Positions 15,526-47,626 of a stretch of 47,797 bases of DNA are shown piece by piece. Location: contig JAFXCD010000040.1 in NCBI GenBank assembly GCA_017521605.1, forward strand, positions 1-47,797. Reading direction: 5' to 3'. The notes under the pieces were generated by a model. It saw only the letters and a program-made list of their open reading frames with translations. It was not told the DNA's origin and searched no databases. A program made the translations under genes and the position numbers. The stretch is from Lachnospiraceae bacterium (GTDB taxonomy: Bacteria; Bacillota; Clostridia; Lachnospirales; Lachnospiraceae). Positions within the stretch are counted from its first letter, which is position 1. Each line of letters opens with the position of its first letter.

Positions 15526-16536
15526 CTATTCTTCTCCCAATATTCCCTTCACATGTTCAACAGCCTGCTGATATCGTTGTTGATAAGTACCCTTAACTTC
15601 AACAAACTGGTGACCGTGTATGCGAAGCAACTCTTTTATTTGCTCACTATATTTACTCCTGTCGGCATGAATAACTTCACTTCTGTCTCCGTCCTGCACA
15701 AATTTCACATCCGGCTCCAGAAATAGAATCAGGTCATAATTGTTTAAAGCATCCACTGCATCCGATAAAGCCTTATTTTTTTCAACCAAAGGGTCACCCA
15801 GAAAATTCATATAGAACTGAGTCACCAATGCATCTGTGTCAATGAACAATACCTTATTACTTTGTTCAAGAGCTTTTATCTCATTCAGCTTATGCTGCAA
15901 TAATATCTCAGTAAAATCTTCAGGAAGCATAAGTAAATCCGTACCGGAACGTTCTGAAATATCCCGCCCTGCTTCCTCAATATAGTTGGTATTAAATCGA
16001 TTAGCCAAATTGATTGTAAGTGTAGACTTTCCTGTGCTTTCTCCACCAATCAAAAGGACCTTTTTGGTAAAATACGGACGTACCACATTAGGTAACCAAT
16101 CCCAACACCGATATGGATTTTTATTAATCTCTGTGGAACTCATACCATTTCGCGGAAAAACATGCAATTCACTTTCCGGATAACAAATATTCCAAAAGCT
16201 ATTTTCATCGTAATCACTTCCACAAAATACTACATCAATTTTTTCACCAATCTCTGCTTTAATCTTATCTGCATCTGACTGCCAATACTTTTCCGTATAA
16301 TCAGCTTTAGTGAGAGACCTGTCTTCCAAAGTAATAATCTTAACATTCCCGATATGCTTGGTTAGGGAATATAACCAGCGATATCGCACTCTTGGATTTA
16401 TCTCCTCCCTATTCGTAGCCACACTGAGTACAATAAAAAGCTTTTCACACATATTTGTAGCCTGAATAATACAATCAACATGTCCAAAATGTAAAGGATT
16501 AAAAGTACCACCATACATACCTACGCCATAAGTCAT
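15526..16536 (-). CDS. nadR: NadR-like NMN adenylyltransferase / nicotinamide riboside kinase
   Basis: The 336-residue form starting MTYGVGMYGGTFNPLHFGH is chosen because its ATG overlaps the pnuC stop (ATGA) and follows AAGGAGG. The N-terminal half is a nucleotidylyltransferase domain with the GGTFNPLHFGH motif. The C-terminal half is a P-loop kinase with LLIGGESTGKSTLTINLA. Together they phosphorylate nicotinamide riboside and adenylate NMN to NAD. The N-terminal repressor HTH of enterobacterial NadR is absent. It is coupled to pnuC, the riboside importer, which supports salvage. Confidence 0.9.
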   Translation of the reverse strand: MTYGVGMYGGTFNPLHFGHVDCIIQATNMCEKLFIVLSVATNREEINPRVRYRWLYSLTKHIGNVKIITLEDRSLTKADYTEKYWQSDADKIKAEIGEKIDVVFCGSDYDENSFWNICYPESELHVFPRNGMSSTEINKNPYRCWDWLPNVVRPYFTKKVLLIGGESTGKSTLTINLANRFNTNYIEEAGRDISERSGTDLLMLPEDFTEILLQHKLNEIKALEQSNKVLFIDTDALVTQFYMNFLGDPLVEKNKALSDAVDALNNYDLILFLEPDVKFVQDGDRSEVIHADRSKYSEQIKELLRIHGHQFVEVKGTYQQRYQQAVEHVKGILGEE

Positions 16537-17234
16537 GCCTGTTTTGCCTCCTTGTTCCATTTTACAAACATTATGATTGCATTTATCAAATATACACTCC
16601 ACATGGCAAGTGTGGCTATGGATTCTCCTCCATTGGCAAAATTAATCGCCCACATAATGACTGTTACCACATCCACCACAATCCACAATATCCACTGCTC
16701 TGTAAGACGCTTAATAGAAAGAATCTGGGCAACAACGGATACTACAGTACTCATGCTGTCAACAAAAGGTAGATTTCCTCCCATAAGATTCAGCACAAAA
16801 CCATAACCAACAATACCCATGGCTGTAACGCCATAAAGTATCAAACTTTTCTGAAAAGGCAACCTTGCTTTATTAACCTCGTTGGTTTCATCGTTCATAT
16901 GCTTCTTCCAAGCAAACCAACCAATAAAGTTGGCGGGGAGATAATACAGTATATTCAACATTACTTCGCCATAATAAGCAGCCTGATAAGATATTATTGC
17001 ATAGAACAATACATTCACTGTTCCAAACAGGAAAGAGGAACGCTTTCCTTTTCCAGTCAAAATCACACACCATACACCGGTAAGCGCTGCGATAATACTA
17101 ATCATATTGTCCTTCCAATAAATGGAAAGGCCTAAAATAACTATTGTCGCAATCATAATCCAAGCAACATCAAATTGAGACCAGCCGGTACATTCTTTCT
17201 TAATCCACTGCTTTAGTTTTTCATTTGTTTTCAT
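16533..17234 (-). CDS. pnuC: Nicotinamide riboside transporter PnuC
   Basis: This 233-residue membrane protein has about seven hydrophobic segments, including VLGLSIYWKDNMISIIAALTG and the C-terminal QWILWIVVDVVTVIMWA. That last segment carries the W-x-x-W and Asp pattern of the PnuC substrate site. PnuC lets nicotinamide riboside diffuse in, and trapping depends on phosphorylation by the NadR-type kinase encoded next to it with a 4-nt overlap. It lies 30 nt after glgP with no terminator between, so it may be read from the ileS leader. Confidence 0.9.
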   Translation of the reverse strand: MKTNEKLKQWIKKECTGWSQFDVAWIMIATIVILGLSIYWKDNMISIIAALTGVWCVILTGKGKRSSFLFGTVNVLFYAIISYQAAYYGEVMLNILYYLPANFIGWFAWKKHMNDETNEVNKARLPFQKSLILYGVTAMGIVGYGFVLNLMGGNLPFVDSMSTVVSVVAQILSIKRLTEQWILWIVVDVVTVIMWAINFANGGESIATLAMWSVYLINAIIMFVKWNKEAKQA

Positions 17235-24782: not shown

Positions 24783-26237
24783 ATGAGCAAACAAAATCTA
24801 ACCCTATTAACAGACCTTTATGAATTAACCATGATGCAGGGTTATTTTAAAAACAAAGGTCAGAACGAAACTGTTATTTTTGATGCCTTTTACAGAAACA
24901 ATCCCTGCGGAAGCGGCTATTCTATTGCTGCAGGTCTGGAGCAGGTTATCGAATATGTGAAAAATCTGCATTTTTCTGCTGAAGACATTGATTATTTAAA
25001 GAGCCTGAATATTTTTGACAGAGATTTCTTAGATTATTTAAGAGGCTTCCACTTTACGGGAGATATTTATGCTATTCCTGAAGGAACTGTTGTCTTCCCC
25101 AGAGAACCTTTGGTAAAGGTTATTGCACCTATTATGGAAGCTCAGCTGATTGAAACAGCCATTTTAAATATTATTAATCATCAGAGTCTTATTGCCACCA
25201 AAGCAGCTCGTGTCTGCTATGCAGCCAAAGGCGATGGTATCATGGAATTCGGTCTTCGCCGTGCCCAGGGACCTGATGCCGGTCTGTACGGTGCACGTGC
25301 GGCTATGATTGCAGGTTGTGTAGGAACCTCCAATGTATTGGCCGGACGCCTCTTTGATGTACCTGTAAAGGGCACCCATGCTCACAGCTGGATTATGAGT
25401 TTTCCGGATGAATATACTGCATTTAAAACTTATGCAGAGATGTACCCTCAGGCATGTATCCTGTTGGTAGATACTTATGATACTTTAAAATCCGGTGTAC
25501 CTAATGCCATCAAGGTATTTACAGAAATGCGTGAAGCAGGTATCCCCCTCACCTTCTATGGTATACGTCTGGATAGCGGAGACTTGGCTTATCTGTCCAA
25601 AAAAGCCCGCAAAATGTTAGATGCAGCCGGGTTCCCTGATGCAGTCATCTCTGCATCCAATGATTTGGACGAATATTTAATCGAATCCCTGAAGGCTCAG
25701 GGTGCTACCATCACCTCCTGGGGTGTAGGTACCAACCTGATTACTGCCAAGGATAATCCTTCTTTTGGCGGTGTGTACAAGCTGGCAGCTATCATGGGAC
25801 CGAATGGAGAATTTATCCCTAAGATTAAACTTTCCGAAAATAGCGAAAAAGTTACCAACCCCGGCAACAAAGTCATCTATCGTGTTTATGATAAAGAGGC
25901 AAACAAAATTATTGCCGACTTAATCTGTCTGGCAGATGAAACCTATAGCGAGGACAATGACTTATCTCTTTTTGACCCGGTAGAACCCTGGAAAAAAACC
26001 AAGCTAAAAGCGGGCACCTATACTTTACGTCCTCTCTTTGAGCAGATTTTTGACCGCGGTGAGTGTGTATATACTTCACCCAAGGTTATGGAAATTCGTG
26101 ATTACTGTTTAAAGGAGCAGGATACTCTTTGGGAAGAGTCCAAACGTTTCGTAAATCCTCATAAGGTTTATGTTGACCTTTCCAAAAAGCTGTATGATAC
26201 CAAGATTCAGCTCTTAGACCAAATGAGTGAAGGCTAA
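24783..26237 (+). CDS. pncB: Nicotinate phosphoribosyltransferase
   Basis: This 484-residue enzyme converts nicotinate and PRPP to nicotinate mononucleotide for NAD salvage. Conserved parts include LTDLYELTMMQGYF at the N-terminus, EFGLRRAQGPDAG, GTHAHSWIMSF and the RLDSGDLAYLSKKARKMLDAAGF phosphate-binding region. Length fits the group found in Firmicutes. It lies 21 nt after the diguanylate cyclase with a good GGGAGG site, so the two may be cotranscribed. With pnuC and nadR across the divergent promoters, three NAD salvage genes lie within about 11 kb. Confidence 0.95.
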   Translation: MSKQNLTLLTDLYELTMMQGYFKNKGQNETVIFDAFYRNNPCGSGYSIAAGLEQVIEYVKNLHFSAEDIDYLKSLNIFDRDFLDYLRGFHFTGDIYAIPEGTVVFPREPLVKVIAPIMEAQLIETAILNIINHQSLIATKAARVCYAAKGDGIMEFGLRRAQGPDAGLYGARAAMIAGCVGTSNVLAGRLFDVPVKGTHAHSWIMSFPDEYTAFKTYAEMYPQACILLVDTYDTLKSGVPNAIKVFTEMREAGIPLTFYGIRLDSGDLAYLSKKARKMLDAAGFPDAVISASNDLDEYLIESLKAQGATITSWGVGTNLITAKDNPSFGGVYKLAAIMGPNGEFIPKIKLSENSEKVTNPGNKVIYRVYDKEANKIIADLICLADETYSEDNDLSLFDPVEPWKKTKLKAGTYTLRPLFEQIFDRGECVYTSPKVMEIRDYCLKEQDTLWEESKRFVNPHKVYVDLSKKLYDTKIQLLDQMSEG

Positions 26238-35370: not shown

Positions 35371-37926
35371 TTATTTCGACTTTTGAATCTCTTTTACTGT
35401 AAGCAATCCCGACATTGGTTTTCCGTTTACTCTGTCACAAACTCGGATAGTGGTTCTGCACCATTCCCAAGTATCATCTGATCCTTTACGTCGATATTCT
35501 ACAGAAATATGGTTCTTGGTTTCCAATTCCTTTAACACATGCTTTGTATCAAAAAATTCCTTTGCCTTTTGTATATCTTCCGGACAAATGGTACCATTTT
35601 CAATATGTACCTGTATCATTTCTTCATATTTCCCTTGTTCCATTAAATGATTTTCATCCGGATATAGCATACGACCAAAATTCTCCTGCAGATGTACATA
35701 ATAAACTTCCTTATACTCCTGCACCAATTGATTCATAGCCGCCTCACACATATGTATTCTGGTGTCATCTTCCAACATACAGCAAATATAACCCTTCTGA
35801 TATCTGGTAAATACCAGCTGTAAATAACGCTTGGAATAAGCACTATAAATCGGTATGTCAAATTTCTCTCCCAGATATGCGGTACGATACATTTTATCAA
35901 ATAATTCTTCCCGTCTGTGAGCGAATGCTTTAGCTGCCATAAACTGCATACGAACCACACTTCCACCGGTAATACGTCCAATTTCCTTATTAGCATAGAT
36001 AATCTGACACTCCCTGACTTTATGCTCTTCATCCAAAACCGGCTTAATCAATACACATCCTCGTGGGAAATCTCCATAATACTTCTCTATATGGCGCCAT
36101 TGTCTCTCTGTTAATTCCTCTACATCGTATTCTCCGGATGTTGTAACTTCTTTCTTTTCCTGCAACTCTGTCAAATCCATCAGTGAACCATAATAAATCC
36201 GATGGCCATCATGTTCCCTCAGAAAATGAATACTGATTCGTACCCAAAGTCTCCTTCCGTCCATTCGTACAAAATGAATATACTCTGTTGCTTCACTGTT
36301 CTGATTCTCTCCAGCCTGTTTGAAAATGCGTAATATTTTTTCCTTGTCTTCTGCATTTACATGTAAAAGGAAATCACTCTTATTAGGGTTATCACTCTCT
36401 ACTGCCTTAGAATTTCCTCCCAACAAATCATAATATTGATTGTTTACCCGAGTAATCTTTATATTATTCTCATACATATCATAAAAGGCAGCCGGACCCA
36501 AAATATTATTCAATAAAGTATCACTGAAAACATTTCTATCCAGAAACTCATTCATCCGCAGAGCTTCTACTCGTTTACACCAAATACCATCCTTATCCAG
36601 ATTGTGAACATCCCTTATTAACTCTTCAAAATCTGCAATGGGCATGGGTCTGTAATAATAATATCCCTGTGAATATCTGCAACCCATCTTCAACAAAAAG
36701 CTTTCCTGCTTCTGATTTTCCACTCCTTCTACAATAATAGGTAACTGCATCTGTCTGGCCATATTCACTACCGATTCCAGTATGCCAATCCCCTTTTCTT
36801 CTTCACTATCATTAATTTCCAGAAAACGCATGTCCAACTTCAATACATCCACTGCTATACTGCGTAACATATTCAAAGAAGAATATCCGCTTCCAAAATC
36901 ATCCATCATCACCCACATCTTAGCATCTCTAAGTTGCTTCACTGTACGAATGACCTTGTCATTATTCTCTACATAAGTACTTTCTGTAATTTCCACCTTT
37001 AATAGGTCAGAAGACAGTTTATATTTTTCCAAAAGCTCCATTAAAAAACCGGGCACATCCATGGAATAAATATCAATACGGGACACATTAATAGAAACCG
37101 GCACAGGTTCAAATCCCCTATCAATTAAGGTTCTCAACCATTTGCATACCTTCTCCCAAACATAACGGTCCAAACTGGCAATAAAACCATTTTTCTCAAG
37201 TACAGGAATAAATATACCCGGAGAAATGAGACCTTTTTTCGGATGAATCCATCGCACCAGACACTCTCCACCCACAATCTTACCGGTGGCAATATCACAT
37301 TGTGGCTGTACATAAAACGTAAATTCCTGATTCTTTAAAGAACTTTGTATTTCTGAAAGAAGTCGTAATTCCTCTTCTTCCTTTTCCTCCATATCCTCAG
37401 AATAAATACAATGACGTTGGGAATAATTACCCACAATCTTTTTGAGTGCCATAGTCGCTCTGTCATACATGGTTGCAATATCTATAGCGGTATCGGTAAT
37501 CGGATAAACACCAAATGCCGGCAAAAATCCAACCGTATTGCTCCAACAAGCAACTTCTTTAGCAATGGCCCGATGAAAATCTCTAAACCGGTCCGTATCC
37601 ATTTGCGTCAAAATCGCAAAATTATCCCCACCAAAATAGCCGATAACACCGCCATAATTGATGCGATATTCCTTCAGTTTTTCAGCCACTCGTTTCAGCA
37701 ATTCATCTCCCTGTTCTCTGGAATATATCTTATTAAATAACCGGAAATGCTCCAAATCAATGGCTAATACACAATATCCGTCACCATCCACACTCTTTAA
37801 GAACTCTTCAGCTTTCTGAAAGAAAGTATGGCTTAAATACAGACCGGTTAAAGCATTCACTTCCAATCCATTAATTACAATGGCTTCGCTTTCAGTAATG
37901 TCATATTCTTTACGTATCCGATCCAT
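35371..37926 (-). CDS. GGDEF-EAL-PAS protein, likely c-di-GMP phosphodiesterase
   Basis: This 851-residue cytoplasmic protein begins with a GGDEF domain (LNALTGLYLSHTFF, then GYFGGDNFAIL). The signature is GGDNF, so cyclase activity is doubtful, though GTP binding could persist. The EAL domain is well preserved: the EAL position reads GGECLVRW, followed by ITESTYVEN, DDFGSGYSSLNML, VLKLDMRF and VEGVENQ. One or more PAS-like segments follow (DMYENNIKITRVNNQYYDLLGG). The likely activity is hydrolysis of c-di-GMP, tuned by the GGDEF and PAS parts. GGAGGT lies 7 nt before the start. Confidence 0.88.
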   Translation of the reverse strand: MDRIRKEYDITESEAIVINGLEVNALTGLYLSHTFFQKAEEFLKSVDGDGYCVLAIDLEHFRLFNKIYSREQGDELLKRVAEKLKEYRINYGGVIGYFGGDNFAILTQMDTDRFRDFHRAIAKEVACWSNTVGFLPAFGVYPITDTAIDIATMYDRATMALKKIVGNYSQRHCIYSEDMEEKEEEELRLLSEIQSSLKNQEFTFYVQPQCDIATGKIVGGECLVRWIHPKKGLISPGIFIPVLEKNGFIASLDRYVWEKVCKWLRTLIDRGFEPVPVSINVSRIDIYSMDVPGFLMELLEKYKLSSDLLKVEITESTYVENNDKVIRTVKQLRDAKMWVMMDDFGSGYSSLNMLRSIAVDVLKLDMRFLEINDSEEEKGIGILESVVNMARQMQLPIIVEGVENQKQESFLLKMGCRYSQGYYYYRPMPIADFEELIRDVHNLDKDGIWCKRVEALRMNEFLDRNVFSDTLLNNILGPAAFYDMYENNIKITRVNNQYYDLLGGNSKAVESDNPNKSDFLLHVNAEDKEKILRIFKQAGENQNSEATEYIHFVRMDGRRLWVRISIHFLREHDGHRIYYGSLMDLTELQEKKEVTTSGEYDVEELTERQWRHIEKYYGDFPRGCVLIKPVLDEEHKVRECQIIYANKEIGRITGGSVVRMQFMAAKAFAHRREELFDKMYRTAYLGEKFDIPIYSAYSKRYLQLVFTRYQKGYICCMLEDDTRIHMCEAAMNQLVQEYKEVYYVHLQENFGRMLYPDENHLMEQGKYEEMIQVHIENGTICPEDIQKAKEFFDTKHVLKELETKNHISVEYRRKGSDDTWEWCRTTIRVCDRVNGKPMSGLLTVKEIQKSK

Positions 37927-38042
37927 ACTTTCACCTCCATCCTTGGACTATATACCACTCTCATTTTACTACTTTTTGTCTAAAAAATCAATGTTTTTAC
38001 CAAAAATAAACTGTATTTATCGTGAATTTTCGCACAAATAAA

Positions 38043-38069
38043 GCGTATAGGATTTTTATTCCTACACGC
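38043..38069 (-). terminator. Terminator after mfd
   Basis: On the minus strand GCGTGTAGGA pairs with TCCTATACGC (one G-U pair, 7-nt loop) and is followed by TTTATTTG. It lies 7 nt after the mfd stop, ending the TIR-LRR/pth/mfd run. Confidence 0.7.
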
Positions 38070-38075
38070 CTTTGT

Positions 38076-41000
38076 CTATTTCTTCTCTTCCAACAAAAAC
38101 TCCTGCATATCCTGCAATAGTCTCTCTGTAGTGCTAAGCAGATTTTCTGCATCCTTCTCTGCCACTCCGCATTTATAATAACGGTAGGTAAAGAAAGGAT
38201 TTCCATAGGCTGTAAAGCTTAAATTATCCTTGTGTCTCTTTATCAGCTCCGGAATCTGTTCTACCTTAATCCTTGCATCGGAGCGAAAAATCAATTGAAT
38301 CCTTTCATTTTTTCCTTTAATCTCTGTCATAAACAATTCATGAGCGGCCACTCTTATCAGTGCAATCCGTAGCAGATTTTCTACACTTCTTGGTACCTCA
38401 CCAAAACGGTCCAACAGCTCATCCAGCATATCATCCCGCTCCTTTAGGTTCTCAATCCCTGCAATCCTTTTGTAAATATCCAGCTTCTGCACTTCGTTCA
38501 CAATATAGCTGGCCGGAATATATGCATCTACATCCATATCCACAGTGGTAGTAAAGTCTGTAGGTGCAGTAGGAATTCCTTTCAAATTCTTTACTGCCTC
38601 ATTCAGCATCTTACAATACAGATCATACCCTACTGCTTCCATATGTCCATGCTGTTTCGTACCCAACAGATTGCCTGCACCACGGATTTCCAAATCTCTC
38701 ATAGCAATTTTATATCCACTTCCCAAATCCGTAAATTCCTTTATGGCTGCCAAACGCTTTTCTGCTACTTCCTTCAGCATCTTATCCCGCTTGTACATTA
38801 GAAAGGCATACGCTGTACGATTCGATCGTCCAACACGTCCTCTCAACTGATACAACTGGGAAAGCCCCATATTATCGGAGTCATGAATAATCATGGTATT
38901 GGCATTGGAAATATCTAAACCCGTTTCAATAATCGTAGTAGAAACCAACACATCAATTTCTCCGGCAATATAGTCAAACATAATTCGTTCCAGCTCATGC
39001 TCCTTCATTTGTCCATGAGCAAAAGCCACTGTCGCTTCCGGTACAAGCTTTGCTACATTTGCCGCTACATCCGCTATATTATTCACTCTATTGTATACAT
39101 AATACACCTGCCCGTTTCTTGCCAGCTCACGGACAATGGCCTCACGCACCATTTCCTCGTTGTATTCACAAACAAAGGTCTGTATGGGTAACCGTTCTCC
39201 CGGTGCCTCCTCCAACACACTCATATCACGAATCCCTATGAGACTCATGTGTAAGGTACGAGGAATGGGTGTTGCTGTCAATGTTAATACGTCTACGTTC
39301 TCTTTTAACTTCTTGATTTTTTCCTTATGGGTCACACCAAAACGCTGCTCCTCGTCTATTATCAGAAGTCCCAAATCCTTAAATACCACATCCTGAGACA
39401 GGACTCTGTGGGTACCAATAATAATATCTACAAAACCCTTTTGCAAATCTGTAAGGCTTTTCTTTATCTCCCCCGGTGTACGGAATCGGGACAACAAATC
39501 CACGCGGATGGGAAAGTCCTTCATACGCTGAATAAAGGTATTATAATGCTGTTGTGCCAAAATGGTAGTAGGTACCAGATATACTACCTGCTTACCCTCC
39601 TGTACTGCCTTAAAAGCTGCACGAATGGCAATCTCTGTCTTACCATATCCCACATCTCCGCAAATCAGGCGATCCATAATTTTGGTGCTTTCCATATCAG
39701 CCTTTGTATCCTCAATAGCCAGTAGCTGATCTTCTGTTTCCTCAAAAGGGAACATTTCTTCAAACTCTCTCTGCCAAACTGTATCCTTACTAAAGGCATG
39801 GCCCTGACTTTGCTGACGCAAGGCATAAAGCTCCACCAAATCCTTTGCCACTTCATAAACAGCACTGCGAACCTTGGTTTTGGTCTTTTCCCACTCCTTG
39901 CCTCCCAGCTTATTCAGCTTAGGTGTTTTGGCTGCATCTGCTGCCGCATATTTCTGTATGACATCCAACCCGGTTGCCAGAATATACAGATTGCCTCCAT
40001 CACGGTACTCAATCTTCATATAGTCCTTTACAACCCGTTCCATTTCCACTTTTTCAATGCCACGATAGATACCCAGACCATGGGATTCATGGACCACATA
40101 GTCTCCTACCTTTAGCTCATTAAAATCATTTATCTTCTGCCCTTGATAGAGCTTACGCTTCTTCTTTTTACGTTCCTTGCCAAAAATATCCGACTCTGAA
40201 ATTACTACAAATTTCAACAAAGGATATTCAAACCCTTTATTTACATGGCCATAATAGGTCAAAACCTCTCCCGTTTGTACCTCTCTGAAGGGATCCTCTG
40301 TATACACTGCTGCCAGCTCATGTTCCCGCAAATCCTCTGCCAGACGTTTCGCTCTGGTACGGGAACCGGACAGCAATAGTACCCTATAGCCATTCTTTCG
40401 ATACTGCTTCAAATCCTTTACCAAGGCTTCAAAACTATTGTTATAGGAGGAAACACTTCGAGCATTTACACTCACTTTGCGGTCTGCATGAACCAGGCTG
40501 TTACGGGTCGCCATAATGGAAAGAGTTACTATTGGTGCCCTCATCAGCTTGGCCATAACATACTCTCCACTACAAAGTAAATCCATCTGTCCGGGTAATA
40601 TATATCCCTTCTTAGCCCGTTGCTCCATACTCTCACGAAATTCCAATTCCACTACCTTTACCTGGGCTTCTATATGAGTAGGTTCATCCAAATAAAATAC
40701 CAAGGTGTTGTTTTTCTCTTTCTCCGCCATTTGCAGAAAGATTTCCGGCAGTGTGACTAAATCCTCATAAAAGTATCGGATATAGCCTTCCACATTCATT
40801 ACATTCCGGAATTCCAGAAGCTGTTCCTTCAATTCTCTCACCTGAGTAGCAATACGATGCGCCTCCTCCGGCATATGTTCTCCCCGAAAATATTCTTCAC
40901 GTATCTTTGCTTCCTTCACCAATTTATCCAATCCCTGATGAATACGTTCATCCTCTAGCACAAACTCCGTAGCAGGATAAATTGTTATACTATTCAACTT

Positions 41001-41636
41001 CTCTACAGAACGCTGACTTAACACATCAAAGCTTCGGATAGAATCCACTTCATCTCCCCAAAGCTCTATACGATAAGGATTCTCCTCTGTCAGTTCAAAA
41101 ATATCTACAATGCCGCCACGAATACTGAATTGGCCGTTTGTTTCCACCTGATAGGTTTTTTCATAACCAAAAGAGACCAGCTTTTCAGCCAGTCGTCTTT
41201 CATCCAGTACTCCACCCTTTTCAATCCTTAAAATATCTTTGTCCTCTTCCCAAATTACTTGTGGTGTCATAAGTGCCGCAAAGGTAGTAACCAGTGTCAT
41301 AGGTTTCTTTTCCGTCAATCGGCGCAGTACCCTGATACGCTCCTTGGTTAATTGATTACCATGAATATCTGCCTGAAAAAAGATTAAATCCTTAGCCGGA
41401 TATAAAAGCACATTTCTATCAAAAAAACGATACTCTTCATAGATTTCCTTGGCACGTAAATCGCTGTAGGTCACAATCACCTTGTACTTAATACCCTCTG
41501 CCAATCCATAGATCATATGCAGCTTCTGTGAATCCACACACCCACTGATGGCAGTTACATCTTTTTTCTTCTGTATGAAGTTTTTAATATCACTGTACTC
41601 TGCCAGTTCTGTAAGAGGTGCCAATAATGCCTGCAT
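38076..41636 (-). CDS. mfd: Transcription-repair coupling factor
   Basis: Mfd displaces stalled RNA polymerase and recruits UvrA. The 1186-residue protein has an N-terminal UvrB-like region (FSIRGGIVDIFE), a CarD/RID polymerase-binding module (LKVGDYVVHESHGLGIYRGIE) and a RecG-like translocase with Walker A CGDVGYGKTEIA and Walker B IIDEEQRFG. The TRG motif region (GLSQLYQLRGRVGRS) and a C-terminal D7 domain follow. Length is standard. It starts 10 nt after pth with a strong AAGGAG site. The pth-mfd order is conserved in many Firmicutes. Confidence 0.97.
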   Translation of the reverse strand: MQALLAPLTELAEYSDIKNFIQKKKDVTAISGCVDSQKLHMIYGLAEGIKYKVIVTYSDLRAKEIYEEYRFFDRNVLLYPAKDLIFFQADIHGNQLTKERIRVLRRLTEKKPMTLVTTFAALMTPQVIWEEDKDILRIEKGGVLDERRLAEKLVSFGYEKTYQVETNGQFSIRGGIVDIFELTEENPYRIELWGDEVDSIRSFDVLSQRSVEKLNSITIYPATEFVLEDERIHQGLDKLVKEAKIREEYFRGEHMPEEAHRIATQVRELKEQLLEFRNVMNVEGYIRYFYEDLVTLPEIFLQMAEKEKNNTLVFYLDEPTHIEAQVKVVELEFRESMEQRAKKGYILPGQMDLLCSGEYVMAKLMRAPIVTLSIMATRNSLVHADRKVSVNARSVSSYNNSFEALVKDLKQYRKNGYRVLLLSGSRTRAKRLAEDLREHELAAVYTEDPFREVQTGEVLTYYGHVNKGFEYPLLKFVVISESDIFGKERKKKKRKLYQGQKINDFNELKVGDYVVHESHGLGIYRGIEKVEMERVVKDYMKIEYRDGGNLYILATGLDVIQKYAAADAAKTPKLNKLGGKEWEKTKTKVRSAVYEVAKDLVELYALRQQSQGHAFSKDTVWQREFEEMFPFEETEDQLLAIEDTKADMESTKIMDRLICGDVGYGKTEIAIRAAFKAVQEGKQVVYLVPTTILAQQHYNTFIQRMKDFPIRVDLLSRFRTPGEIKKSLTDLQKGFVDIIIGTHRVLSQDVVFKDLGLLIIDEEQRFGVTHKEKIKKLKENVDVLTLTATPIPRTLHMSLIGIRDMSVLEEAPGERLPIQTFVCEYNEEMVREAIVRELARNGQVYYVYNRVNNIADVAANVAKLVPEATVAFAHGQMKEHELERIMFDYIAGEIDVLVSTTIIETGLDISNANTMIIHDSDNMGLSQLYQLRGRVGRSNRTAYAFLMYKRDKMLKEVAEKRLAAIKEFTDLGSGYKIAMRDLEIRGAGNLLGTKQHGHMEAVGYDLYCKMLNEAVKNLKGIPTAPTDFTTTVDMDVDAYIPASYIVNEVQKLDIYKRIAGIENLKERDDMLDELLDRFGEVPRSVENLLRIALIRVAAHELFMTEIKGKNERIQLIFRSDARIKVEQIPELIKRHKDNLSFTAYGNPFFTYRYYKCGVAEKDAENLLSTTERLLQDMQEFLLEEKK

Positions 41637-41646
41637 AATAAACTCC

Positions 41647-42228
41647 TTAGCTTTGTTGTGTTGACTTTCTGTTAAACTGATTCATAGCTTTGTCCACATC
41701 TCCTGCCATCATCATACGGATAGCATCCACTGCACTCTTAGCCGCTTCATCCATGAGCTTACGCTCTCCACTGCTGAAATGTCCCAAAACATAATCCGCC
41801 AAATCATATCCCTTGGGCTTTTCACCTACGCCCATTTTCACACGCATAAAGGTATCATGTCCCAGATGGGCAATAATATTCTTCAGTCCATTGTGTCCAC
41901 CGGCACTGCCCTTTTTGCGAATTCTGATGCTGCCCACATCCAAACTGGTGTCATCAGAAACCACAATCAGCTCCTGCTCCTCGTTCACCTTATAATAGTC
42001 TATGATGTCTCTGACACTTTCACCACTTAGATTCATATAGGTCTGTGGTTTCACCAAAATTACCTTCTGACCATCTAAAACACCTTTGCCAATAATGGCC
42101 TTGTGCTTTTTCTCAATTACAGAAATACCGGTCACATCTGCCAAAGCATCTATGACATCAAAACCAATATTATGTCTGGTATTTGTATAATCTTTGCCCG
42201 GATTTCCCAGGCCTACAATAATATACAT
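41647..42228 (-). CDS. pth: Peptidyl-tRNA hydrolase
   Basis: Pth recycles peptidyl-tRNA released from ribosomes. The 193-residue protein carries the family motifs VGLGNPGKDYTNTRHNIGF (with the catalytic His), KPQTYMNLSGESV and SAGGHNGLKNI. The ribosome binding site AAGGAA overlaps the stop region of the upstream TIR-LRR gene, only 14 nt away, suggesting coupled expression. mfd follows at 10 nt. Length is normal. Confidence 0.97.
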   Translation of the reverse strand: MYIIVGLGNPGKDYTNTRHNIGFDVIDALADVTGISVIEKKHKAIIGKGVLDGQKVILVKPQTYMNLSGESVRDIIDYYKVNEEQELIVVSDDTSLDVGSIRIRKKGSAGGHNGLKNIIAHLGHDTFMRVKMGVGEKPKGYDLADYVLGHFSSGERKLMDEAAKSAVDAIRMMMAGDVDKAMNQFNRKSTQQS

Positions 42229-42242
42229 AACTTATTTTCCTT

Positions 42243-44354
42243 CTATTCTGCCACTTCCACCATAACCGGTATTTTGTGACGTTCTTCATAACTATAACGA
42301 TGACCCTGATAAATCAATGTGAGCTTCTCACTGCCATCAAAAGCATTGCTTGCAATCTGTTCCACACTATTGGGGATTCGCAACTCTGTAAGACTCTTAC
42401 ACTCAGAAAAAGCAAATTCCTCAATACGAACCATCCCCTCCGGAATGTACACGGAAGTAAGATAGGGGCAACCATAAAACATACAATATTCAACGTTTTG
42501 CTGAACCAGAGGGATTTCAACTTGCTCAATGCCAGTTCCCCGATATGCACCATAGTTTACTTCTGTCACTCCGTCTTCACCGGCTATGGTTCTTAAATTG
42601 ATACAATCTGCAAATGCATTCTCTTCTATTTGATTAATGCTAGTGGGAAGACTTAAAAACTCCATACTCTCACATTTTGCAAAAGCCTCTTTACCAATGG
42701 CAGTAACCTTCGTTCCCTCTATTGCATCCGGCACTACCACAACCTTATCATTTCCTATATATTCAGCAATATAAACACCATTTTTAGTTATTTCATATTG
42801 GAAATCCAATGCCAGCTTTTCAGACAAATCATCTGCCATTTCCCAATAGGTATCATAATTATAAACCTTCTCACCTTTAACTACTTGCACATTTATTGAA
42901 TCAAAAAATGCATTATAATTAATGGCCTTTATCTCCTCCGGTACCACTACTGTCTCCAAATTATAGCACATCTGAAAGGCTCCATTATCGATTCTAACCA
43001 AAGTTTCGGGAAGCTCCACATATTTCAAATCAGGACATTCACTAAAGGCGCCGGCACCCATCTGTACAATATTTGTTTCAGATAAACAAACCTTTTCAAA
43101 AAACGTTTCTGCAAAAGCAAAATCACCAATAACAGTTACACTTTTCGGAATGTCCAACTGCTGCAAGCTGGTACATCCGTTAAACATATAATCTGCCACC
43201 TTTTCTAAATCAGAGGGTAAATATGCATATATTAATTGCGTACAGTATGCGAATGCGGATTCACCCACTACCATAACAGAATTGGGTATGATAATCTCCT
43301 TTAAAGCAGTTTCTGAAAAAGCTCCTCTGGCAATTTCCTTTACTCCGTTAAGCAGGTTTGCCTCCTCCAACATCCTGCAACGACAAAAAGCCGCTTCGTC
43401 TATCTTTTTCACACTTGTGGGAATGGTAACATTTCTTAAATCGGTCTCCGCAAAAGCCCATGGTCCGATTCCTACTACACTCTCCGGTATCTCCACGACT
43501 TGAAGGTCACTGCATTGATAAAAAGCACCCTCTGCAATATAAGTAACTACTGCTCCATCAATCTCAGAAGGAATAATTACCTTGGGAGCAGTACCTTTAT
43601 AACCAACAATAGTAGCTTCTCCATTCTTAATCTCATACATTAAATCCTGCAAGGAGGCTGCTTCCAACTCCGAAGAAGTTTCCTCTATCTCTTCTGTTTC
43701 AATTTCCTGCTCCCTATAGTCTGTGCTTTCTATATTTTCTATCACAGTTTCCTGACTTTCGTCCTTCTGCCTTTTATCTGATTTCAACAAATTCAGACCC
43801 AGCAAAATAGCAACCACAAGTAATAAACTTGCCACTATTCCTACGGGAACAACCCACTTTTTGCTACTTTTCTCTATATTACCGGCGTCTTGTGGTACAG
43901 AAGTATGAATGGTTACCTTGTCAATATAAGTATTGTTGGTAATGTTCTGCAAAGGCACCTGCATAACACCATTCATCACACCATACAATTCTTCAAATTT
44001 ATAATCACCTGCCTGAATATCTGCCACAATCCAGTGGGCTCCGGCCAGATAATAATCAAAAGCTCCTGTAAGCTCCGTATCATCAATCTTGTAAGGTATA
44101 ATAAATTTGCCACGCTTATCTGCAAGCCCCAATTCCTTGGGCACCTGAGTAGAAGCAGCAGAATTAGCACTATAAATTACCACCATCACCTTAATGGTAG
44201 CAATAGCATCACTAATGGCCACAGCCCATTCAGTACCCGGCGTAATATCCCTGGGCGCAATCCAACACTTCAGCCCTCTTGCCTCCAAAGCCTCACACAT
44301 CTTGTCCGCTATTACTTTATCCTTTGAACTATGACTTATAAATACGTCTGCCAT
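42243..44354 (-). CDS. TIR domain - membrane span - BspA-type LRR protein
   Basis: The 703-residue form starting MADVFISHSSKDKVIAD is chosen because that is the usual TIR_2 start and GTGAGG precedes it. Residues 1-125 form a TIR domain with CWIAPRDITPGTEW and VPKELGLADKRGKFIIPYKID. Glu74 in VPKEL matches the position of the catalytic Glu of TIR NADases. A single span follows (about 167-190) with basic residues on its N-terminal side, so TIR is probably inside. Residues from about 235 to the end are LRR_5/BspA repeats (IPESVVGIGPWAFAETD type), in two blocks split by a non-repeat stretch near 495-545. Signalling or cell death triggered by an outside ligand is inferred, not known. Confidence 0.85.
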   Translation of the reverse strand: MADVFISHSSKDKVIADKMCEALEARGLKCWIAPRDITPGTEWAVAISDAIATIKVMVVIYSANSAASTQVPKELGLADKRGKFIIPYKIDDTELTGAFDYYLAGAHWIVADIQAGDYKFEELYGVMNGVMQVPLQNITNNTYIDKVTIHTSVPQDAGNIEKSSKKWVVPVGIVASLLLVVAILLGLNLLKSDKRQKDESQETVIENIESTDYREQEIETEEIEETSSELEAASLQDLMYEIKNGEATIVGYKGTAPKVIIPSEIDGAVVTYIAEGAFYQCSDLQVVEIPESVVGIGPWAFAETDLRNVTIPTSVKKIDEAAFCRCRMLEEANLLNGVKEIARGAFSETALKEIIIPNSVMVVGESAFAYCTQLIYAYLPSDLEKVADYMFNGCTSLQQLDIPKSVTVIGDFAFAETFFEKVCLSETNIVQMGAGAFSECPDLKYVELPETLVRIDNGAFQMCYNLETVVVPEEIKAINYNAFFDSINVQVVKGEKVYNYDTYWEMADDLSEKLALDFQYEITKNGVYIAEYIGNDKVVVVPDAIEGTKVTAIGKEAFAKCESMEFLSLPTSINQIEENAFADCINLRTIAGEDGVTEVNYGAYRGTGIEQVEIPLVQQNVEYCMFYGCPYLTSVYIPEGMVRIEEFAFSECKSLTELRIPNSVEQIASNAFDGSEKLTLIYQGHRYSYEERHKIPVMVEVAE

Positions 44355-44459
44355 TTTCCTCACCTTAATCATGCATTTCTTTCGTTAAAATATACATACC
44401 CATTATATGTAAAGCCATAAGTATTTGTCAATGCCGCAGCATGCTCCTTGTCATGACTT

Positions 44460-44870
44460 TCACATTATGTTCAAATTATCATCAATCTCTTGTCTGGTTA
44501 TATATTTATTATGTTCAATCTGCACATTGTTTAAATACATCCCTCTGTCGCAATCCTTATCCCAGTTCTTTTGGATATGTTTTGCCATCTCTTCTACAGA
44601 AACAATATACCATTTACTTATCCAGCCATGATTTCCTTCCCTATACGCTACCCGTTCATTATCCAAACGAAGCGCTGTCACATATCCTCCCGGGTCAGTA
44701 GACGATTTCCAATCAGCATCCCCATAACTAATTTCTTCATCACTTACCTTAAATCCGAATTCTTTTAAGTATTCTTTTTGCTCTTCTGTCATAATTTTAC
44801 TTACCCGCTTCTGCTGTTTACATTCTTTAACCATACACATTTTACCACGAATCCTGCTTACGGTAAACAA
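44460..44870 (-). CDS. Small hypothetical protein
   Basis: Up to 136 residues; internal starts at MCMVKECKQ (44840) and MTEEQKEYLKEFGF (44792) are also possible and none has a strong ribosome binding site. The conserved-looking core is EFGFKVSDEEISYGDADWKSSTDPGGYVTALRL. It ends with YNN-type polar residues (YITRQEIDDNLNIM). There are no membrane segments. It resembles short SMI1/immunity-like or DUF proteins in composition, but no family was recognised. It lies upstream of the TIR-LRR gene on the same strand, 105 nt away. Confidence 0.5.
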   Translation of the reverse strand: MFTVSRIRGKMCMVKECKQQKRVSKIMTEEQKEYLKEFGFKVSDEEISYGDADWKSSTDPGGYVTALRLDNERVAYREGNHGWISKWYIVSVEEMAKHIQKNWDKDCDRGMYLNNVQIEHNKYITRQEIDDNLNIM

Positions 44871-45026
44871 ACATTGACTCTCATCACATGTTCGAATTGT
44901 CCTACCCTACATGCGCCATATTTCTATCTTGAAGACTGCACTTGAATTTTTAAGATCGTAAAGAAGCGTTTGAACCTTTGGGCTCTACCGCTGTATATGT
45001 TCTTCAATATCAAATTATTAAATCAG

Positions 45027-45048
45027 GTGAAACTTGAAATTTTCACCT
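45027..45048 (-). repeat. Hairpin after the XRE remnant
   Basis: GGTGAAA (45027-45033) and TTTCACC (45042-45048) pair across an 8-nt loop directly after the last stop of the broken XRE gene. There is no proper T-run on the minus strand, so it may be a decayed terminator. Between 44871 and 45026 nothing else can be supported. Confidence 0.35.
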
Positions 45049-45247
45049 TACTGTGGTAAACCATATAAACTAAAATATACAATCATAGAAATAACATCAA
45101 TCAATACAATTATTCCCAAAATAATTGCAGCAATCTTCAACCCCATTTCGATACAGTTTGCCTAGAAACACTCAAACGATTAGCAAGTTCTTCTTGTGAT
45201 AAGCCTTTTTGTTTTCGAAGATTATACAATTTATTATGAAATTCCAT
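45049..45247 (-). pseudogene. Remnant of a membrane-tailed XRE regulator
   Basis: The 5' part reads MEFHNKLYNLRKQKGLSQEE followed by LANRLSVSRQTVSKWG and a stop, which is a complete HTH helix set cut at the usual W-E-x-G point. Right after it, in another frame, MGLKIAAIILGIIVLIDVIS and a short tail VYFSLYGLPQ form a membrane helix ending at 45049. The family normally has an HTH, a linker and C-terminal spans, so this looks like an internal deletion joining the two ends out of frame. A 36-residue HTH-only peptide could still be made. Confidence 0.6.
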
Positions 45248-45340
45248 CTTTAACAATCCTGTTAAGTCCAGTTGCACCGCCTTATTTACGGGAAAAAGTA
45301 ATGTAAAATTCAATCTTCTGTTGCTTTCAATCTGTCTGTA

Positions 45341-45401
45341 AGACTGAAATTCTTGCGTGCTTTCAGACTCAACTTAAGTCTGAAAGAATTTGAGCGTGCT
45401 T
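45341..45401. repeat. Imperfect direct repeats with an internal hairpin
   Basis: Two related copies of about 22-25 nt (45341-45362 and 45377-45401) share AG-CTGAAA and GCGTGCTT. A perfect inverted repeat CTTTCAGACT/AGTCTGAAAG lies across them (45360-45369 and 45377-45386). It lies upstream of the XRE remnant, where operators of such a regulator would be expected. Confidence 0.4.
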
Positions 45402-45440
45402 ATAATGCTCTCCTTATATCAGTCCCAAAAATCATCCGGT

Positions 45441-45712
45441 TTAATTGTCATGCCATACAGCTACAGCAGTAATCGTCAAAACGATGATACCCATCAAAAC
45501 TGCTATTCATCCAGCTTTTCTAAATGACATCCTGAAAAATCAAGTTCCCTCAACAAGGACAACTCACTAAGCGGTTTATTAAACTCAATTGGATTTTTTG
45601 ACAAATTCAGATAACTTAAAGCCTTACAATGAGAAAAACACACTGGATTAGAAAAATTACATCCTACCATGTCCAAGCCTTCCCTATCACGATACGATAT
45701 AGTTCGAATTTT
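45441..45712 (-). pseudogene. Remnant of a leucine-rich-repeat membrane protein
   Basis: An open stretch at 45503-45712 contains ALSYLNLSKNPIEF and LSELSLLRELDFSGCHLEKL, two leucine-rich repeats of the L-x-x-L-x-L-S-x-N type, ending in DE-stop. An ATG at 45670 would give a 55-residue peptide. Eight nt further on, in another frame, a 17-residue hydrophobic piece MGIIVLTITAVAVWHDN ends at 45441. The pair looks like the 3' end of an LRR gene with a C-terminal membrane anchor, disrupted by a frameshift. It is of a different LRR type from the BspA repeats in the TIR protein. Confidence 0.5.
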
Positions 45713-45752
45713 TCAATCTTCCTGTTTCTGCACTTCTGATAGCGAAATGACT

Positions 45753-46772
45753 CTAACCCCAAGGCTCACTTTCTAAATAAATAATTCTGCCATCCTTTAA
45801 CGATATTTCCACCTTATGCTGCCATTCTCCACTGTAGTATAAAATATCCTCTACCTGATAATCCTTCAGAAACTCAAACCGCTCTAAAATGATTTCAGGC
45901 CCTCCATCTGACCCAAAATTAAAATCCACCCAATACACTTCTCCCTCTTCTGTAATGATACAGGGACATGGATTTACATCGGTTCCGCGATTAAATGTTT
46001 TCAGTCTCTTAATATTACTCAATCCGGTATATTTCTTTATCTGCCCCCTACAATAGTATGTACCAAATATGTAACTGCCGTTACCGTCATAACAATAGTA
46101 CATATCTCCACCTGATATATACACATAAATACCATAACCCAAACATTCATCCCAAGGGGCGGCATAGCATTCAAAAAATACAAGGTCTGTGGTAGGCACA
46201 GGAACTACCAAACGCTTTTGTCCTTCAAGCACCTTGATTTTTTCAACATTCTGTTGTTCAATCGGATTTAGTTCTTTCTCATCATACCAATCATATTCTT
46301 CATTTCTCCAAAAGATTTCATGCCTGGCACGTTCAAGGTCTTCTACTGACATTCCTTCCAACAATTCCGTCGGTATTTCCTCTTCACTACTGGTTGGAAA
46401 CAATTCTTCCATTTCCCAAGGATATCCTATTTTCTCCGAGTCTTCTGTTTCTTCTGAGTCTTCCGTACTCTCCTCGGATTCATCCGTTTCTTCAGAAGCT
46501 TCGCTTTCTATGACTTCCGTAGATTCCTCTTCCGGCTCTGTGCTTTCTTGTACTGACTCTGTAGTCTCTTCTGTTGCTTCCAGCACTTCCGCGGTCTGCA
46601 CCAAACTCTCTTCCGTTTCCTTTGTCTCCTCAGTTTCCTCTGTCGGCTCTGACGGCTCCACACTCATCTCCACTAAACTTTTCGGGCCCTCTTCTTTTTC
46701 ATCCGTCTCCTGATTCATGTCACAACCGGTCATAAGAAGAGCTAATGCTAAAATCACTAACCACTTTTTCAT
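45753..46772 (-). CDS. Glu/Thr/Ser-rich lipoprotein with YARHG-like segment
   Basis: The 339-residue form starting MKKWLVILALALLMTGCDMN is chosen because GGGGAGG lies 6 nt upstream; the frame extends 23 codons further without a site. The lipobox is LMTGC with Cys17. Residues about 20-140 are almost entirely Glu, Thr and Ser in repeating ETEE/ESTE units, a probable wall-spanning stalk. The following segment ERARHEIFWRNEEYDWYDEK resembles the YARHG domain. The C-terminal 150 residues form a Tyr- and Gly-rich beta domain of unknown function. It is probably displayed outside the cell. Confidence 0.75.
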   Translation of the reverse strand: MKKWLVILALALLMTGCDMNQETDEKEEGPKSLVEMSVEPSEPTEETEETKETEESLVQTAEVLEATEETTESVQESTEPEEESTEVIESEASEETDESEESTEDSEETEDSEKIGYPWEMEELFPTSSEEEIPTELLEGMSVEDLERARHEIFWRNEEYDWYDEKELNPIEQQNVEKIKVLEGQKRLVVPVPTTDLVFFECYAAPWDECLGYGIYVYISGGDMYYCYDGNGSYIFGTYYCRGQIKKYTGLSNIKRLKTFNRGTDVNPCPCIITEEGEVYWVDFNFGSDGGPEIILERFEFLKDYQVEDILYYSGEWQHKVEISLKDGRIIYLESEPWG

Positions 46773-46837
46773 ATGTTTCCTCCCCTTCGTAAGTAAATCT
46801 ATATTCACACCCATTTCACATTGTTGGTGTACTTTTA

Positions 46838-47095
46838 TCAACCTTTCTGATTCTGATTCTCTATTGTAAATCTAACCTTCCAATCTCCCTTCACAAGATT
46901 TTGGCAAGTAAAGAAATGCCCATAAATCTCATATTCATTTATTTCATCAGCATTGATATCAAATATATACTCCTCATAGCTTCCCCTTCTTTCCTCATCC
47001 CAGAATGCAATACTGCTTCCGGGCAGAACCTCTTTTCCATCTGTACCAACTAAATATATATATCCATGATTATCAAATTGTAAAATATCCTCCAT
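46838..47095 (-). CDS. Short protein, possible C-terminal fragment of a DUF4179/DUF5643-type protein
   Basis: The 85 residues read like the last domain of a larger surface protein: YLVGTDGKEVLPGSSIAFWD, a polar stretch, then QNLVKGDWKVRFTIEN, which resembles the C-terminal beta domain of DUF4179/DUF5643 proteins. The frame opens directly after a stop codon and has no ribosome binding site. A neighbouring frame upstream reads KQVRIELDGGYFTI and may be the displaced preceding part. It is therefore likely a 5'-truncated, frameshifted remnant. It lies 21 nt after the GNAT gene. Confidence 0.45.
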   Translation of the reverse strand: MEDILQFDNHGYIYLVGTDGKEVLPGSSIAFWDEERRGSYEEYIFDINADEINEYEIYGHFFTCQNLVKGDWKVRFTIENQNQKG

Positions 47096-47116
47096 CTAAT
47101 TCAATTCGTACTTGCT

Positions 47117-47626
47117 TTATGCTCTCTTTAAAATATATTTCGCAATCTGTCTGCTTTGCTTCTGGTACTCTCCCATACCTTCATATTCCTTTTTGAAACC
47201 ACACTTTTCCAGGACTTTTTTAGATGCAAGGTTTTCTGACACACAGATTCCATATACTATGTCTAATTCTTTTTTCTGCATTATCTCACTTAGAAATGCT
47301 TTTAATGATTCTGTGGCATAGCCATTTCCGGTATATTCTTTTCCGATATGATACCCCACTTCAAATCCTTCTTCTATCGGCACAAGCTGAACATATCCTA
47401 TATTAGTTCCATCTTTCAGTAATACCGAATACACCAAGGGGCCTTCCGTCGACTCGTACATACTCATAAGAAACTCTATCGTTTCCCTTGCATCTTCTAC
47501 GGTTTCAAACACTTCATCAGGCACGAACCGCCTAGTATCCTCATCCAAAGAATTTCTATGTACACTTTCCGCCATAGCTAAATCAAATTCGGTAATAATC
47601 ACTCTTTCTGTTTCAATTCTCATCAT
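47117..47626 (-). CDS. GNAT-family N-acetyltransferase (RimJ/RimL-like)
   Basis: This 169-residue protein has the Acetyltransf_3 layout: MRIETERVIITEF start, the acetyl-CoA-binding stretch VGYHIGKEYTGNGYATESLKA (Q/R-x-x-G-x-G/A site as YTGNGYA) and CVSENLASKKVLEKCGFKKE. Such enzymes acetylate ribosomal protein N-termini, antibiotics or small amines; the target cannot be predicted. A GAGGGAT site precedes the start. A group II intron ends about 50 nt upstream, so the natural promoter may have been separated from the gene. Confidence 0.9.
   Translation of the reverse strand: MMRIETERVIITEFDLAMAESVHRNSLDEDTRRFVPDEVFETVEDARETIEFLMSMYESTEGPLVYSVLLKDGTNIGYVQLVPIEEGFEVGYHIGKEYTGNGYATESLKAFLSEIMQKKELDIVYGICVSENLASKKVLEKCGFKKEYEGMGEYQKQSRQIAKYILKRA

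Follow-up and report, generated by a model that had tools for sequence, protein, structure and literature searches.

A TIR-span-LRR_5 protein encoded ahead of pth and mfd in a Lachnospiraceae bacterium: a candidate surface receptor with the Toll order reversed

Animal Toll-like receptors (TLRs) follow a common plan in which one membrane span separates leucine-rich repeats (LRRs) on one side from a TIR domain on the other. Bacterial TIR immune proteins are, to our knowledge, cytosolic and triggered from within the cell; the TIR enzymes that consume nicotinamide adenine dinucleotide (NAD), such as PdTIR, AbTir, Cat1, TIR-STING and SPARTA, are as far as we know soluble and likewise triggered from inside. 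In contig JAFXCD010000040.1 of a Lachnospiraceae bacterium (assembly GCA_017521605.1, a 3.8 Mb draft genome, 92.9% complete and 6.0% contaminated), of which positions 1 to 47,797 were analysed and are here called the window, one gene encodes a protein that joins, from N- to C-terminus, a TIR_2 domain, one membrane span, an acidic linker and BspA-type LRR_5 repeats in two blocks. We give somewhat better than an even chance to the explanation that this TIR-span-LRR_5 protein is a single-pass, N-inside receptor whose outer LRRs control an NAD-processing TIR domain inside the cell.

In animal TLRs the order is LRR-span-TIR; in the window protein it is reversed, the repeats are of the BspA-type LRR_5 kind and no LRRs are N-terminal. 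A preliminary description, made from the window sequence, had called the protein a Toll-like receptor in reverse, which holds as a picture of the domain order but not as kinship, in view of the BspA-type LRRs and of the three TIR branches described below. With the bacterial TIR NADases the window protein shares the TIR fold and, with PdTIR, Cat1 and metazoan TIR-STING, an aligned Glu, whereas its regulator is predicted to lie outside. It differs from Thoeris ThsB by its span and LRRs, and no SIR2/SLOG (thsA-like) gene was recognised by Pfam among its seven neighbours (35374-47626); a STALD search of genomes G000 and G102 for a ThsA partner gave no match, and neither did the search's controls. 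Plant TIR-NB-LRR proteins have the same order, with TIR N-terminal and LRRs C-terminal, but carry NB-ARC in between, where the window protein has a span and no NB-ARC match at E 0.001. Amoeba TirC is eukaryotic, and the available excerpt of its description mentions no outer sensor domain and reports that TirC from which one part has been removed is toxic in the host (PMC13142454). The TIR-span proteins found here in the same genus and order have, like the window protein, a conserved Glu, one span and a varied C-terminal part, and the LRR_5 form at pth-mfd was found in just two genomes. The layout is real but not unique, as outer parts of other kinds occur on many TIR-span proteins. TIR domains, BspA-type LRRs and modular TIR proteins are already known; among the matches listed from the open-licence literature, neither TIR-span-LRR receptors in bacteria nor the TIR-span set were found to be described.

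The open reading frame (ORF) was read from MADVF, whose ATG at 44354 has a Shine-Dalgarno sequence (AAGGTGAGG) 3 nt ahead of it; an alternative in-frame ATG is present at 44372. Pfam matched TIR_2 (E 6.2e-20) and, in three stretches, LRR_5 (E 2.1e-85), both well over the curated cut-offs, and the two LRR blocks match one another at E 7e-23. One 19-residue stretch has a mean Kyte-Doolittle hydropathy of 2.82 and gives the span listed in Table 1 when extended to the nearest charged residues, and no second crossing exceeded the threshold in a hydropathy scan. The AlphaFold model of the complete protein has a mean predicted local distance difference test (pLDDT) of 75.8 and a predicted template modelling score (pTM) of 0.53, and AlphaFold models matched solved TIR domains and BspA-type LRRs. 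Pfam, hydropathy and AlphaFold thus bear out the TIR domain, single span and C-terminal BspA-type LRR array that had been proposed. Chance resemblance was ruled out by the Pfam E-values and by a syntenic ortholog in genome G102.

This ortholog, from the same genus, is a TIR-span-LRR_5 protein of 470 residues (L118:2503-3915), 63% identical to the window protein over residues 1-201, and its gene sits 18 nt ahead of the pth-mfd pair. When the two species are compared, the TIR domains (residues 1-112) are 81% identical, with a crude ratio of nonsynonymous to synonymous differences per site (pN/pS) of 0.19; pth is 85.5% identical (pN/pS 0.13) and the first 385 residues of mfd are 82% identical (pN/pS 0.13). 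The linker is 25% identical and the LRR part, about twice as long in the window protein, 41% identical with a pN/pS of 0.57. Saturation of synonymous divergence (dS) and a possible misregister of the aligned repeats make these ratios only indicative and weaken them as evidence for a receptor. The direction of the difference, a slow TIR domain and a fast LRR part, fits what would be expected of a receptor with a steady signalling domain and a changing sensor. Decay of the TIR domain was ruled out by its conservation.

Glu74 is the Glu of VPKEL. In a sequence alignment, rather than by superposition of atoms, it is aligned with a Glu of PdTIR, Cat1 and metazoan TIR-STING, and in the model it lies in the helix after core strand 56-61. 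Its conservation was followed in 68 TIR ORFs extracted from 60 hand-picked regions biased to strong matches, 43 of which have an N-terminal TIR domain and then one span. Position 74 is Glu in all 43 TIR-span ORFs while positions 70, 72 and 73 vary, a pattern that fits catalysis, although these ORFs were selected from strong TIR matches and include some near-duplicates, which lessens the weight of the count. Among the 25 other TIR ORFs, 24 have Glu and one has Asp at this position. Alignment and conservation uphold the earlier match of Glu74 to the NADase Glu, and its position in the modelled fold agrees. Glu74 is the putative catalytic residue of a TIR domain that may process NAD.

Several points weigh against such a receptor, some bearing on its chemistry and others, set out further below, on its topology. 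The WxxxE motif has a Trp four residues before the Glu; in the window protein this residue is Gln70, and Trp is found there in 10 of the 43 TIR-span ORFs and in 7 of the 25 others. We know of no requirement for this Trp in NAD-consuming TIR enzymes. Hydra TRR-2, a close PDB match, is without Glu at the aligned position. According to a TIR survey, how often the Glu occurs need not follow activity, the share being above 90% in some TLR TIRs (PMC7075850), and a Glu-to-Ala mutant of TirC was still active as an NADase under crowding with polyethylene glycol (PMC13142454). Because of this survey and this mutant, the Glu is neither proof of activity nor the full story. Nor was a defence gene recognised beside the TIR gene, as judged by Pfam in its seven neighbours.

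Part of this evidence would suit the main rival explanation, in which the receptor layout is the same and the TIR domain is a non-enzymatic docking module that recruits a partner, as in animal TLRs. The missing Trp and the frequency of Glu in some TLR TIRs agree with docking, the TIR model closely resembles the TIRs of MAL and MyD88 as well, and a possible partner is encoded in the same genome. This is a second TIR_2 protein, of 837 residues, with a TIR domain, a span and a WD40-type propeller (L131:4506-7016, contig C19). However, the Glu is invariant in the TIR-span ORFs amid variable positions, as catalysis would have it, and no adaptor gene was recognised at the locus. We regard docking as unlikely, although it is the alternative to be taken most seriously.

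The TIR and LRR parts should lie on opposite sides of the membrane because a single span separates them, barring a second crossing. The basic residues remarked before the span in the preliminary description are present, but the charge rule is weak here: the 15 residues before the span contain 3 Lys/Arg and 2 Asp/Glu and the 15 after it 4 Lys/Arg and 4 Asp/Glu, so that the net charge, +1 before versus 0 after, is nearly balanced, one of the points that tell against the predicted topology. Across the TIR-span ORFs, the net charge is more positive on the N-side of the span in 41 of the 43, equal in 2 and opposite in none. When only Lys/Arg are counted, the N-side is higher in 38 of the 43, equal in 4 and opposite in 1, the last being a further contrary case, and the means are 4.95 before the span and 2.0 after it. 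An outside location of the C-terminal part also fits because relatives carry a trypsin-like peptidase or NPCBM after the span. We infer from this family evidence a single-pass topology with the N-terminus inside and the C-terminus outside, in which the TIR domain is predicted to be cytosolic and the LRRs to be external; the TIR-in, LRR-out arrangement first proposed is thus favoured by the charge bias of the family and only weakly by the charges of the protein itself.

It is improbable, in our estimation, that the TIR and LRR parts are both cytoplasmic, with the hydrophobic segment as a mere anchor and the LRRs as an internal sensor. Besides the near balance of charge around the span, this alternative can draw on 10 other LRR_5 ORFs in genomes G000 and G102, of which 4 by hydropathy scan and 5 by eye have a span or signal and about half are without an export signal, a finding that also counts against external LRRs. 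The closest neighbours of the window TIR in a tree moreover include cytosolic TIR-NTPase proteins (support 0.716). Against it stand the lone span between the domains, with no second crossing over threshold, the charge bias of the family, and the trypsin-like, NPCBM and DUF6273 parts that follow the span in relatives. So does a protein of like design encoded in this genome, an exported one with a zinc-ribbon-like N-terminus (below Pfam cut-offs), one span and LRR_5 (L258:580-1752, contig C90). Still less probable is a surface adhesin with a vestigial N-terminal TIR domain, since the TIR domain is the most conserved part of the protein and its Glu74 is kept throughout the TIR-span ORFs, even though some surface proteins are known to carry BspA-type LRRs and the PDB match 4gt6 is named cell surface protein, as other PDB matches are titled.

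In the explanation that we prefer, the TIR-span-LRR_5 gene, pth and mfd would be expressed together from a strong-looking promoter. The solenoid of BspA-type LRRs would lie outside the membrane and sense something in or past the envelope, and ligand binding or clustering of this outer part would gather the cytoplasmic TIRs and complete the TIR active site. Glu74 would then enable the cleavage or conversion of NAD+, with NAD depletion or an adenosine diphosphate ribose (ADP-ribose)-type signal as the outcome. The clustering and NAD chemistry proposed here draw on what is known of TIR enzymes. An anti-phage role is possible; a bacteriocin, a neighbour or envelope damage are also candidates.

Relatives were sought with the TIR-to-linker part (residues 1-205) because LRR matches swamped searches with the whole protein; the genome counts include the source genome, and the thresholds favour close TIRs. 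Within the genus, 38 of 138 genomes matched at E 1e-12, the best match being that in G102 (6.5e-76) and the next best 1.5e-29, so that no other of the 138 genomes matched as closely. Matches were found in 18 of 397 genomes of the family (E 1e-15), in 6 of 398 of the phylum (E 1e-10) and, with residues 1-115 as query, in 21 of 295 of the order (E 1e-6). A TIR_2 match was present in 66 of the 101 genus genomes searched for it, the source genome included. Similar LRRs were seen only in L118 among the 68 TIR ORFs, and the 46 returned genus and family loci had them only in the genes of the window and of G102; the six phylum loci were inspected visually, over at most 420 residues each, and more distant TIR-LRR_5 proteins could escape. 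The order TIR_2, span, LRR_5 recurs in G102 and was found nowhere else in these sets. Phage records gave one TIR match (E 1e-15, with 35% identity across 63% of the query) and plasmids 23, the best among the matches listed at E 5e-9; no phage or plasmid match covered 80% of the query. A scan of viral contigs gave seven distant TIR loci.

The outer parts of the TIR-span proteins are diverse. Of 47 proteins scanned with Pfam (the query, the 43, plus L104, L145 and L148), 13 have DUF6273, 5 a trypsin-like domain, 4 Sel1, up to 5 a WD40-type propeller and 3 LRR_5; LRR_4, DUF285 and NPCBM were also found in Pfam scans of ten single proteins. Other TIR-span-LRR proteins carry LRR_4 (L113:2124-4568 by Pfam, L115:2123-4492 by motif) or DUF285 repeats (L137:1516-2961). 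A TIR tree was built from 105 sequences, with the query entered twice under different trimming and with outer domains labelled by our own motif rules; in it the LRR_5, LRR_4 and DUF285 proteins fall on three distant branches, and the nodes just above the query have 0.65-0.82 support. With LRRs attached to TIR-span proteins on three TIR branches that lie far apart, the resemblance to Toll receptors seems to be convergent. Two adjacent TIR ORFs at L109 have P-loop-like GMGGIGK/GIGGIGK motifs and resemble L101 and L119, which are TIR-TPR proteins with an NB-ARC match (below cut-off in L101).

The position of the gene before pth and then mfd, as first described, was confirmed, the gap to pth being 42229-42242 (Table 1). 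The promoter-like site upstream is the only perfect one in the window, in which such sites are not enriched overall (16 observed versus 21.7 expected in shuffles). The G102 gene has a perfect TTGACA-18-TATAAT (in the L118 sequence) with the same hexamers and spacing, and the upstream neighbours are not alike in the two species. As the promoter is shared between both species, it suggests that the TIR gene may be expressed with the housekeeping genes pth and mfd; the coexpression proposed earlier gains from the recurrence of both promoter and pth-mfd synteny. When pth was searched in 28 relatives it was found in 27, of which 2 had flanks too short and 25 were readable. A glgD-like frame (named from sequence) lies upstream of pth in 12 of the 25 and SpoVG-like frames in a few, and no TIR-like gene was seen there among the three longest frames per locus. 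Since a glgD-like frame precedes pth in these 12 relatives, it seems that the TIR gene arrived at the pth spot in a branch of the genus, where it may have captured the pth promoter. In genome G024, pth and the gene of a TIR-span protein with a DUF6273-type look share a contig (C31, L130), some 7 kb from each other.

A fresh mobile insertion with cargo was ruled out, as Pfam recognised neither an integrase nor a defence gene in the seven neighbours and the GC content, 38-40%, falls inside the window's range of 31-45%. Three of these neighbours had no Pfam match whatever. The ORF at 45753-46841 is lipoprotein-like, with a long Glu/Thr-rich stretch whose composition resembles the linker of the TIR protein; it had no match in Pfam or NCBIfam, and its weak PADLOC matches (PD-T4-6, E 7e-4; PDC-M17A, E 0.0018) fall over that stretch and were taken as compositional. 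An upstream same-strand ORF of 136 residues (44460-44870) had no match in Pfam, NCBIfam or PADLOC, and a GGDEF-EAL-PAS protein is encoded downstream of mfd (35371-37926). The window also contains NAD salvage genes for a NadR-like enzyme (15526-16602; below NCBIfam equivalog cut-offs), PnuC (16533-17234) and nicotinate phosphoribosyltransferase (24783-26237). Their presence in the same window is possibly chance and would be relevant if the TIR domain consumes NAD.

Table 1. Features of the TIR-span-LRR_5 locus (window positions; residues are those of the 703-residue protein)
Feature	Position	Strand	Evidence
TIR-span-LRR_5 protein, 703 aa	42243..44354	-	ORF, Shine-Dalgarno, Pfam TIR_2 + LRR_5, AlphaFold
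TIR domain, residues 4-111	44022..44345	-	
Glu74 codon, putative catalytic Glu	44133..44135	-	Glu in 43/43 TIR-span ORFs
Membrane span, residues 167-190	43785..43856	-	Hydropathy; bounded by charged residues
Acidic Glu/Ser/Thr-rich linker, residues 191-232	43659..43784	-	Sequence
LRR_5 region, residues 233-703; two related blocks, ~233-505 and ~506-703	42246..43658	-	
pth, peptidyl-tRNA hydrolase	41647..42228	-	Pfam PF01195; 14 nt downstream of TIR gene
mfd, transcription-repair coupling factor	38076..41636	-	Pfam UvrB_inter, TRCF, CarD; 10 nt after pth
Promoter-like TTGACA-18-TATAAT, 12 of 12	44402..44431	-	Only 12/12 site in window

More broadly, we raise tentatively, at rather less than even confidence, that this bacterial order has a class of Toll-like surface receptors, built from a conserved, NAD-processing cytosolic TIR domain, a span and a swappable outer sensor (LRR_5, LRR_4, DUF285, DUF6273, NPCBM, protease-like or Sel1), in which the Toll plan was independently invented more than once. 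Related TIRs are common enough in the genus for direct testing. If the proposal is true, bacteria would own surface pattern receptors and the Toll plan would have arisen independently in bacteria, which could then react to what happens outside the membrane before the cytoplasm is invaded, or with no such invasion.
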